DNA from: an uncultured Deferribacteres bacterium
Lineage (GTDB): Bacteria; Zhuqueibacterota; JdFR-76; DREG01
Reading direction: 5' to 3'
Assembly (NCBI GenBank): GCA_913009825.1
Contig: CAJVYQ010000038.1
Coordinates: forward strand, 1-46,061
Length of the DNA: 46,061 nt
Shown one piece after another: positions 3,800 to 44,277 of the stretch. A model generated the notes under the pieces. It worked only from the letters and a program-made list of their open reading frames with translations, was not told the origin of the DNA and did no database searches. Each line of letters starts with the position of its first letter. Position 1 is the stretch's first letter. The position numbers were made by a program, and so were the translations under genes.

Positions 3800-4077
3800 C
3801 TTTACTTCCTTTAATACACGATTATTCGATTTAACTATTTCTGCTGTATTAAACAATTATTATACCAATCACTAATACTATTTCTAATTCCTATATTATC
3901 AATGAGATATAACTATATATTTTTAACTTGTTTCATTTAAGCATAATGGCTTATTGTCAATCTTTGTAGGCAGCTAAAATAAATTTAGTTGTAATCTTTT
4001 ATTTTATCATTACTTAAAAAGGTGTCAAAAATCTATCATTCAAAAGACAATATTCTGACATTAAAATTGTATTATTC

Positions 4078-4225
4078 CTAAATTGAGCGATTCTAATGTC
4101 ATTGCGCAGGAATTTTGTTGGTTTAGTGCACAGAATTAATAAGATTTTTTCCCGCCTGTAGTTGAGCAGGAAGAATGACAAAACTCTTTGGGGGGTTGTT
4201 TTAAGCTAAGAATCGCTCAATTTAG
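4078..4225. repeat. R4a inverted-repeat element (148 bp)
   Basis: Ends form an inverted repeat CTAAATTGAGCGATTCT / AGAATCGCTCAATTTAG. The interior matches 11030-11179 along its whole length, including the common environmental-genome motifs GTCATTCCG-AGGAATCTTGTTGG and AGAATGACAAAACTCTTTG. No coding capacity, so it behaves as a MITE-like, non-autonomous element or palindromic intergenic unit. Confidence 0.85.
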
Positions 4226-4242
4226 ATTATTGATAAAATTAT

Positions 4243-4592
4243 TGTAACTATTCAGGTTGCCCGCTAATATCGCTAAAAAACGAGAATCGTTAACTATTTT
4301 GTCCTATTCGTATGATTTCGTGTAATTCGCGGGCAGAACAGGCAAACGATTTTTTCAATTTCTCTGCGCCCGCCGCGTCTCTGCATTAAAAAAACAGGCG
4401 CTTTAAAACGCAGAGATGCAGAGAGTGCAAAGGAAGCGGATTTGTTCAAAAAAATAAAGTGTTACGGTATTGTCACTACTCAGGCAGCCCGCGAAAGACT
4501 CAAAAAAAAACAGGAAAAAAGTAAGATGAGATCATTCGATTGTTTCGTGTGCTTTCTGCCTGTGTCAGACAGACGTGAGCTGAATAGTTACA
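4243..4592 (+). repeat. R1 composite inverted-repeat element, full copy (350 bp)
   Basis: Bounded by TGTAACTATTCAG and CTGAATAGTTACA. It divides into a left unit (to GTTAC at 4465) with a central palindrome of CTCTGCG / CGCAGAG type at about 4360-4430, and a right unit that starts TGTCACTACTCAGG. Each unit contains its own GCCCGC...GCGGGC or CGCGAA arms, so the element looks like two small elements fused end to end. A second full copy lies inverted at 18790-19140, and partial copies are at 1-127, 27046-27144 and 45929-46061. Confidence 0.88.
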
Positions 4593-11029: not shown

Positions 11030-11179
11030 CCTGAATTGAGCGATTCTAATGTCATTCCGTAGGAATCTTGTTGGTTTAGTGAACAGAACTAACAAGATTC
11101 TTTCCCGCCTGTAGTCGGGCAGGCAGAATGACAAAACTCTTTGGGTGGTTGTTTCAAGCTAAGAATCGCTCAATTTAGG
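11030..11179. repeat. R4a inverted-repeat element, second copy
   Basis: Same interior as 4078-4225, with ends AACCTGAATTGAGCGATTC and GAATCGCTCAATTTAGGTT. Its right end touches the stop codon of the metallophosphoesterase gene (TAA at 11180-11182), so it forms the 3' end of that mRNA and may act as its terminator hairpin. Confidence 0.87.
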
Positions 11180-12190
11180 TTAAACACGATTATTTTTCAG
11201 CAACTCTTTTCTTTTCCGGCAAATGAAATGAACACCCAAATAGAAAAGGGCAAGGATAATCAGCATATCCAGATAGTGAATGGCAAAAAAGGCATAAACA
11301 TAAATCCATAGATCATGGGTTAACCTGTCAACGATCTCAAAATCAGGGCTTTTGAGTTTTACTATTTGATAGTGAACGCCCTGTTCGGATACATGCACAA
11401 CCAGATAATGATAGAAATAATGGGCCGGATCGGCGCCTGCTAATTCCGCGCCGGCGCCGCCTGTAATAATATAGGGCGTTTTTCTCCAGCTTCCCCGATA
11501 GTATGCATGGATATGAGAGGCAAAAATCATGGTAACATGATATTGATCAAAAAGGTCGTTTAACTTTTTTGCACAAGCCAAATCCTTCAAGCTGTGCCCT
11601 CGCTTAAATTCACCCTTGCGCGGATCATAAAGAGGAACGTGCATAAATACAAAACGATATTTATAGTGCTGACTCTTTTGCAGTTCTTTTTTTAGCCATT
11701 CCATTTGCCAGGGATCAATGTTTTTTTCATCGGCATCATCCAGGATCATGAAATAACTGCTGCCGATGGCTAATGAATAATAAAAACGGCCAAAAAAATC
11801 ATAATAATTTCCTCTGCCGTTTTCTTTGATCTCATGATTGCCGACTACAGTTAATAGTGGTTTTTGGATCTGCTTGATTTGATTGATGAAGAACCGATAC
11901 TTTTCCTTTTCGCCGTCATAAACGAGGTCACCCACATCGATGGCAAACAAAGAGTTTTCATTATTCACCTTTTTGATCAAGCTCTTAAAAGTTCCGATTG
12001 AATTTTTATTATCGCCGAAAACGACAAAGGAAAATTCATTTTGTTGTTTGTTGATTTTTTTTAGTTGTGTGTAATTCCAATCGCTAATCTGGGGGAAGGA
12101 TAGAATCGAATAAATTTTTATCCCAACCACTAAAATAGTTAAAAAGATGACCAGGCCGAGAAAATATTTTTTAAAAGCATTTGTTAGCAT
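11180..12190 (-). CDS. Membrane-anchored calcineurin-like metallophosphoesterase
   Basis: 336 residues: an N-terminal membrane anchor (about 9-31), an extracytoplasmic metallophosphoesterase domain, and a second hydrophobic segment near 297-322 followed by a basic tail (CRKRKELLKNN). Metal-ligand motifs appear in order: FGDNKNS, GDLVYDG, GNHE, HVPLYDP and SHIHAY, the arrangement of purple-acid-phosphatase-like calcineurin folds. The first motif reads GDNK rather than the classical DxH, a common variant. The SD AAAGGA precedes the ATG. Substrate unknown; an outside-facing phosphatase next to a PAP2 gene suggests phospholipid or phosphate-ester turnover. Confidence 0.85.
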   Translation of the reverse strand: MLTNAFKKYFLGLVIFLTILVVGIKIYSILSFPQISDWNYTQLKKINKQQNEFSFVVFGDNKNSIGTFKSLIKKVNNENSLFAIDVGDLVYDGEKEKYRFFINQIKQIQKPLLTVVGNHEIKENGRGNYYDFFGRFYYSLAIGSSYFMILDDADEKNIDPWQMEWLKKELQKSQHYKYRFVFMHVPLYDPRKGEFKRGHSLKDLACAKKLNDLFDQYHVTMIFASHIHAYYRGSWRKTPYIITGGAGAELAGADPAHYFYHYLVVHVSEQGVHYQIVKLKSPDFEIVDRLTHDLWIYVYAFFAIHYLDMLIILALFYLGVHFICRKRKELLKNNRV

Positions 12191-15505: not shown

Positions 15506-15596
15506 TGTCATTCAGAAGGAATCTTGTCGGGGAAACGCTGGAATTGGAATCTTGTTAATTTAATTGCATATCCAACAAGATTCTTACTGAATGACA
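15506..15596. repeat. R6 inverted-repeat element inside the efflux operon
   Basis: Ends TGTCATTCAG-AAGGAATCTTGT and ACAAGATTCTTA-CTGAATGACA pair over about 20 positions around a 45-base interior. The arms resemble the interior of R4a (GTCATTCCG-AGGAATCTTG). It sits between the adaptor and permease genes, so the transcript must read through it. Confidence 0.75.
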
Positions 15597-15739
15597 TGAA
15601 AGTTAAATTGTCTTTGTTTAGTTGGTAATCCGGGTGCACGTCCACGGGATCTAATTTCTTTATACAACAACCAACAGGCCTTATGATCGGTTACAATTTT
15701 TCCCGGGTAAAGCACCAATAAAACAATATCCAAATTACC

Positions 15740-18789: not shown

Positions 18790-19140
18790 TTGTAACTATT
18801 CAGCTCACGTCTGTCTGACACAGGCAGAAAACACACGAAACAATCGAATGATCTCATCTAACTTTTTTCCTGTTTTATTTTTGAGTCTTTCGCGGGCTGC
18901 CTGAGTAGTGACAATACCGTAACACTTTAGTTTTTTGAACAAATCCGCTTCCTCTGCGCTCTCTGCGTCTCTGTGTTTTAAAGCGCCTGTTTTTTTAACG
19001 CAAGGACGCGGAGGGCGCAGAGAAATTGAAAAAATCGTCTGCTTATTCAGCCCGCGAATTACACGAAATCATACGAATAGGACAAAATAGTTAACGATTC
19101 GCGTTTTTTAGCGATATTAGCGGGCAACCTGAATAGTTAC
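18790..19140 (-). repeat. R1 composite element, inverted full copy
   Basis: A reverse-complement copy of 4243-4592 with intact termini TGTAACTATTCAG and CTGAATAGTTAC. Its central CTCTGCG/CGCAGAG palindrome differs from the other copy at several compensating positions, so the hairpin is kept while the sequence drifts. It fills the gap between the efflux operon and the 19251-19979 gene. Confidence 0.88.
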
Positions 19141-20012: not shown

Positions 20013-20966
20013 TTATCCGTTTTCTTCGTGCTCTTCGCCTTTCTCTTCCTGTTCCTTTTCCTCACCTTTAGTTTCCTTCCTGACAACCTTACCACCAGCG
20101 TCCAGGACTACTTCCATCCCGGCTTCTCCCTGTTCTAATTTTATTTCATAAACAATAGCTTCACCGGTTTTTTCCAGACTTTCCGCTTTCTTAATTTTAC
20201 TATCGCTAAACTGTGATTTTAATGTGGCCAAAACCGATGCAGGCAGGTCTTTTTTATCAAGTTTGGCTTCCGTTTCCAGCCATTTGCCGCCGGCATCAAA
20301 ATTGGCCGACATTTCTTTGCCGTTCAACTCGAACTCCGCTTCAAACTCGGTATCGGATTCTTTGCCCCACTCCACGTCCTTCACCGTGTGGTATTTGGCT
20401 TTAAATGAGGCCGCTACTGCTCCAGGCACTGAAATTCCCGCTGCGCTCTCTGTGTGTTCTTCCGCTTCTTCTCCATGCTCCCCGGCTTTTTCCTGCTCAT
20501 TTTTTTCACTTTTCTCCTGTTCCTTTTCTTCCCCTTTGGCTTCTTTCTTGATCACGTTACCATTGGAATCAAGCACAACTTCCAGTTCGGATTCTTCCTG
20601 TTCTAATTTTATTTCATAAACAATAGCTTCTCCGGTTTTTTCCAGACTTTCCGCTTTCTTAATTTTACTGTCGCCAAACTGTGATTTTAATGTGGCCAAA
20701 ACCGATGCAGGCAGGTCTTTTTTATCAAGTTTGGCTTCCGCTTCCAGCCATTTTCCGCCGGCATCAAAATTGGCCGACATTTCTTTGCCGTTCAACTTGA
20801 ACTCCGCTTCAAACTCGGTATCGGATTCTTTGCCCCACTCCACGTCCTTCGCCGTGAGGTATTTGGCTTTAAATGAAGCCGCTACTTTTTCCGGCACTTT
20901 GGTTTGTGAACAGGCGATAACACTGAACAATACAACTGCCAAAATGGATGTGATGAATGATTTCAT
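20013..20966 (-). CDS. Lipoprotein with two near-identical PepSY-like domains
   Basis: 317 residues. Signal peptide with lipobox SVIAC (lipid Cys at residue 19). Two repeats of about 120 residues start near residues 25 and 181 (156-residue period). Each has VAASFKAKY, VEWGKES, EAEFxLNGKEMSANFD and VYEIKLEQ, the pattern of PepSY-like (DUF2874/'putative beta-lactamase-inhibitor-like') domains. A highly charged Glu/Lys/Gln linker separates them and a second such tail ends the protein. The repeats are nearly identical at DNA level, so the duplication is recent or kept homogenised. These domains are usually periplasmic and often lie beside two-component systems, as here. It may bind a peptide or metal; no catalytic residues are apparent. 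The SD AAAGGAG precedes the ATG. Confidence 0.8.
   Translation of the reverse strand: MKSFITSILAVVLFSVIACSQTKVPEKVAASFKAKYLTAKDVEWGKESDTEFEAEFKLNGKEMSANFDAGGKWLEAEAKLDKKDLPASVLATLKSQFGDSKIKKAESLEKTGEAIVYEIKLEQEESELEVVLDSNGNVIKKEAKGEEKEQEKSEKNEQEKAGEHGEEAEEHTESAAGISVPGAVAASFKAKYHTVKDVEWGKESDTEFEAEFELNGKEMSANFDAGGKWLETEAKLDKKDLPASVLATLKSQFSDSKIKKAESLEKTGEAIVYEIKLEQGEAGMEVVLDAGGKVVRKETKGEEKEQEEKGEEHEENG
20129..20417 (-). repeat. Intragenic duplication, copy 2 (C-terminal domain)
   Basis: A 289-bp segment inside the PepSY-like gene repeated at 20597-20885 with an exact 468-bp offset. Only scattered single-base differences separate the copies (for example GGTTTTTTCC segments identical, ACTATCGCTAAACT against ACTGTCGCCAAACT). 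Confidence 0.85.
20597..20885 (-). repeat. Intragenic duplication, copy 1 (N-terminal domain)
   Basis: Partner of 20129-20417; it encodes the first PepSY-like domain. The frame is kept because 468 is a multiple of three. Confidence 0.85.
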
Positions 20967-40068: not shown

Positions 40069-40337
40069 ATTTTAAATTAAAAAACAAGTACTTACACAAT
40101 ATATAGTGCAAATTCATTATGATTTTTGTCCGCTTATTCAACCTAATATTTATCAAATTTAACAAGGTCTGAACATCTAGTTTATAACTGCTTTTTGTCT
40201 CTGTGCCTTCGCAGTGAATGAATGTTTCAGGCTATAAACATTTTTTCCCTATCGGGACAGATGCATCAAGTAAGAGCGTCATAAAAGACACAGTTTTTCA
40301 AAGGACTAAAGTGTTACCATTTTATAAATTTTATCTG

Positions 40338-40452
40338 CATTAAGCGATTCTCTTGTTTTTAAGCTTTGTGCTGTTACCAAACGGGTTTTCATTTTTTAGT
40401 GCGAATCCTGTGTCGGCGATTAAGCAAATCGCCCTACAATCGCTTAATTCAG
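40338..40452. repeat. R4b inverted-repeat element
   Basis: Ends CATTAAGCGATTC / AATCGCTTAATTCAGG; interior with GTTACCAAACGGGTTTTCATTTTTTAGTG shared with 44160-44277. The ends are shared with R4a but the interior differs. Confidence 0.8.
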
Positions 40453-40571
40453 GCTCTATAAATAGTTCTTGTGGTTTTTTTATATTCAGATGGGTCGAAT
40501 ACCCCCCCACAAGGGGTGATTTAGAAATCGAGGGGTCCGGGTGGTGTTCAATAAATTCAATCAGAATCTAA

Positions 40572-44159: not shown

Positions 44160-44277
44160 CCTGAATTGAGTGATCCTTTTGTTTTACAGCTTGCTGCCGT
44201 TACCAAACGGGTTTTCATTTTTTAGTGTAAATACTGTTGGCAATTCAGCGAATCGCCCTGCAATCGCTCAATTCCGG
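44160..44277. repeat. R4b inverted-repeat element
   Basis: Ends CTGAATTGAGTGATCC / AATCGCTCAATTCCGG with the same internal GTTACCAAACGGGTTTTCATTTTTTAGTG as 40338. It occupies the leader of the GH94 gene, 26 bases before its ATG. Confidence 0.82.

Follow-up and report, generated by a model that had tools for sequence, protein, structure and literature searches.

Four short repeats in the window (the whole 46,061-nt stretch of DNA analyzed here) carry the same inverted ends around two different interiors, and the question they raise is whether these ends are true boundaries and how unrelated sequences came to lie between them. The four repeats and their common ends, called R4 in the first-pass annotation, are all present, and their coordinates can be refined. 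Two 150-bp copies of the R4a form lie on the + strand, one at 4077–4226 with target-site duplications (TSDs) TTATT/TTATT and one at 11030–11179 with perfect 16-bp ends and TSDs TTAAA/TTAAA; the latter adjoins ORF 11180–12190, on the minus strand, at that ORF's stop codon. The two R4b copies, also on the + strand, are a 120-bp element at 40334–40453, whose left end is degenerate and which has no TSD, and a 118-bp element at 44160–44277 with TSDs TTCTT/TTCTT. All four lie in gaps between long ORFs, and exact 5-bp TSDs are present in three. The R4a interior is a hairpin repeat, module A (GTCATT...GAATGAC), which extends approximately from 4095 to 4190 (+ strand) in the first copy and from 11051 to 11133 (+ strand) in the second, where its 3′ arm contains a GC-rich mini-palindrome. 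A diverged copy of a second repeat, module B, occupies approximately 44237–44263 (− strand) beside the right end of the second R4b copy. A further module A copy at 15507–15597 (strand not assigned) lies beside a GTAACTG sequence and has no R4 end nearby. The window also contains, inside ORF 20013–20966, a 300-nt stretch in two copies that are 91% identical (20047–20814; 468 bp start to start).

The R4 inverted ends are 16 bp long (CCTRAATTGAGCGATT and its inverse). Within one mismatch, the 11-mer TTGAGCGATTC occurs seven times in the window, where 1.27 copies are expected; the 5.1-Mb genome has 292 exact copies of it and 0 of the reversed control, and 354 occurrences of the 15-mer CTRAATTGAGCGATT (control, 0). 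Extraction of inverted end pairs, a step that the first-pass annotation had suggested, was performed on about 1.58 Mb of the same genome, sampled in stretches many of which were picked around known matches, so that densities cannot be extrapolated. This gave 110 convergent pairs, which mostly enclose elements of 100–180 bp (about 117–150 bp in the R4a and R4b MITE families, which have no transposase gene). Exact 5-bp duplications, mostly TNNNA, lie directly outside the ends of 64 of the 110 pairs; controls offset by 20 and by 37 bases gave none among these pairs, and no other duplication length gave a comparable signal. We also joined the flanks of elements with a single target copy retained, and found sites of this empty form, for example for L034:8386 (L096, L078, L087 and others, each with a single TTGGA), L072:19183 (L064) and L079:14868 (L079:13200); the sites are paralogous rather than orthologous. 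Because of the 5-bp duplications and the paralogous empty sites with one target copy, the R4 ends are true transposon boundaries.

The same 16 bp match perfectly both ends of an insertion sequence (IS) in the same genome, a single full-length copy of 1,802 bp (G000:C21; L051 1179–2980) with perfect CCTAAATTGAGCGATT at each end. Its ends begin CCT, as do those of R4 and of ISEcp1, a member of the IS1380 family. The IS encodes a 467-aa ORF, an IS1380-family transposase that scores 70.6 bits against PF13701 (cut-off 34.7) and 163 bits (E=6e-48) against NF033539, the latter under that model's cut-off of 180. The flanks of the IS, TATTA and TACTA, are alike at four of five bases. Comparison with L115, a relative that is 62% identical and lies on another MAG (ends CCTAAACTGAGCGATT), reveals two short palindromic insertions in the resident gene; one is in frame and adds 6 aa, and the other, a 19-nt palindrome, shifts the frame, so that the resident transposase frame seems to be broken. 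Since the sole full-length copy appears frameshifted, current activity of the R4/IS1380 family is doubtful and it may be inactive now. A second subterminal stretch of R4a (AGCTTGAAA...) resembles the L115 IS end (score 22, 0 of 500 shuffles, among 32 comparisons), and the R4b subterminal regions have no significant match to either IS. PF13586 was considered as the parental transposase family, and its single match (C114) lacks R4 ends. No close transposase was found in the draft assemblies of two relatives that carry R4-type MITEs (G028 and G037); insertion sequences are often missing from MAG assemblies.

Between the R4 ends of the 110 pairs, the interior matches that of B in 55 and that of A in 46; the other nine resemble neither closely, and the IS itself is among them. 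Interiors A and B cannot be aligned, with a local score of 21 that lies within the range of shuffled sequences (median 19, maximum 38), and the earlier description of R4a and R4b as "same ends, different cargo" is thus borne out. Third and fourth interiors occur between the same ends in other families of the phylum, namely 143-bp copies built on GTAGTAC... hairpins in G028 and elements with an AACCTT...AAGGTT hairpin in G037. The two closest family members (G001 and G002) have no R4 ends, and this patchy distribution suggests horizontal spread.

We consider it very probable that R4a and R4b are type I MITEs, a term for non-autonomous derivatives with the ends of a resident IS (PMC3542288): they have the ends of an IS1380-family IS, would have been moved in trans by its transposase, and carry unrelated interiors as passengers. 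The data that support this are the identity of the ends with those of the IS, the TSDs and empty sites, the copy number, the distinct interiors, the reciprocal nesting and the sharing of modules (see below). R4 resembles type I MITEs in size, in being non-coding, multicopy and intergenic, in having ends identical to a resident IS and in its class of target duplication, but differs in that its interiors are mostly not IS deletion remnants; they are hairpin repeats common to MITEs with other ends. From the sequences we infer that the IS1380 transposase would recognize the 16-bp ends in trans and insert the elements into AT-rich intergenic TNNNA sites, duplicating 5 bp; movement would need the ends only, so that unrelated interiors could ride. 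The two interiors would then represent separate lineages built on the different hairpin repeats A and B, which probably entered when elements nested or recombined or when IS ends captured a hairpin, and were later amplified. If a single transposase that reads only ends mobilizes the MITEs, "same ends, different cargo" is the expected result. The first-pass annotation had drawn from it a general mechanism of interior replacement; this stands as a recurrent evolutionary pattern, but no active or dedicated replacement step is called for, as nesting and a common transposase suffice, and the term interior replacement fits a recurrent outcome better than a dedicated mechanism.

The converse of "same ends, different cargo" also holds, in that the interior modules occur between other ends as well as between R4 ends. 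Among 82 genomes from the phylum, 13 contain module A (GTCATTCNGNAGGAATCTTGT...). At L104 it lies inside a GTAAC element that is itself nested, with the 8-bp duplication CGGATTTT, in an R4b copy, and elsewhere it lies between CCTGAWTAATTCACAA ends (G030), GGCTGTGTGAAAA ends (G002) and CTCAGTTATTGGTG-like ends (G035); as for module B, four GTAAC elements of 102 bp contain it, and so does a different repeat in G005. This recurrence of modules between different ends is a stronger pattern than that described in the first-pass annotation, which missed it. The sharing among several end types is plain from the data as a pattern. Tentatively, the small palindromic hairpin modules may be semi-independent mobile units or cargo open to exchange, which across the phylum came repeatedly to lie between the ends of several IS families with no relation to one another, making a combinatorial "ends × interiors" system. 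Two more observations concern module A: many of its hairpins, in both orientations, are packed within about 6 kb at G000:C7:3300–9900 (L079), and in G030 (L215–L234) a large family of MITEs whose ends are CTGAWTAATTCACAA (86 matches with up to one mismatch, compared with one for the control) has it as the usual interior.

A related reading takes modules A and B to be mobile or recombinogenic in their own right; they would pass actively from one MITE backbone to another with other ends, and interiors would be replaced rather than independently founded. This is possible but rather unlikely. The presence of module A between R4 and four other kinds of end, that of module B in both R4 and GTAAC elements, and the existence of a 68-bp R4 form without any module (a single copy, G000:C3:36769–36834) agree with it. 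However, the modules themselves have no consistent target duplication at their flanks (for module A, on inspection by eye), and the lone 68-bp form is no proof of module insertion, as deletion through the TCATTC/TCACTC direct repeat explains it equally well. The only process directly seen is the nesting of whole elements: R4b lies in GTAAC at L067 and in an A-type element at L080:12519, and GTAAC in R4b at L104.

It is far less probable that the repeats are functional intergenic hairpins (terminators, mRNA stabilizers or protein sites) that selection or conversion, rather than transposition, has spread. R4a does fold into a stable nested hairpin (z = −8.8), and R4 elements lie exclusively outside long open frames (0 of 110 in frames of at least 200 codons), but R4b folds weakly (z = −1.8 and −2.9), a search of the window matched no Rfam families, and the exact 5-bp TSDs, the empty sites and the matching IS refute this account of their dispersal; exaptation of individual copies is possible. 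That the common ends arose by convergence or chance, or are pieces of one larger homologous repeat (an alternative noted in the first-pass annotation), has only their shortness in its favor and is exceedingly improbable, given the 292 exact 11-mers against 0 reversed, the empty sites, and TSDs at which homology stops in well-preserved copies.

The GTAAC group, represented in the window at 4244–4591 and 18792–19140, has exact 8-bp duplications in 25 of 54 pairs in the 1.58-Mb sample (0 in the control). Because its target duplications are 8 bp long and those of R4 are 5 bp long, the two superfamilies are independent, as had been proposed. The 8-bp TSD and GTAA ends led us to consider IS66 as the parent, but its model, PF03050, has no match in the group's own genome, and this search found no parental transposase.

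Correia elements of Neisseria duplicate TA, compared with 5 bp for R4. These elements (also NEMIS) are, like R4, miniature inverted-repeat elements whose two size forms are distinguished by an internal segment, but the Correia forms are otherwise alike, whereas the R4a and R4b interiors are unrelated (PMC2229807). TIMEs, Tn3-derived miniature elements with mosaic derivatives (PMC4133298), share with R4 mobilization by ends only and mosaic cargo, but have Tn3-type ends, and their cargo is genes in composite structures rather than hairpin modules. We found no description of the present sequences in the literature searched. With R4a and R4b taken as MITEs of a known type, the specialist interest lies in the combinations in which several end types share hairpin modules. 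MITE ends, target duplications and the matching resident IS are all visible in one concrete case, and the same hairpin between at least five end types in one bacterial phylum offers a testable example of mini-transposon mosaicism, which bears on the origin of MITE interiors that are not deletion remnants of a parent IS.

Members of the IS1380 family such as ISPa33 and ISPsp9 make 4–5-bp target duplications (PMC4133298), and are thus similar to R4 and the resident IS in this respect and to the latter in transposase family; R4 differs in having no transposase, and the resident IS in the two mini-palindrome insertions in its gene. GC-rich mini-palindromes of about 18–19 bp (CCTGYCTG..CAGRCAGG) occur at 52 places in the 1.58-Mb sample (0 in shuffles). 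Besides the IS1380 region (L051:1414–2974, including the two insertions in the transposase gene), they are found within R4 elements, where they account for the difference between the 117- and 135-bp forms of R4b.
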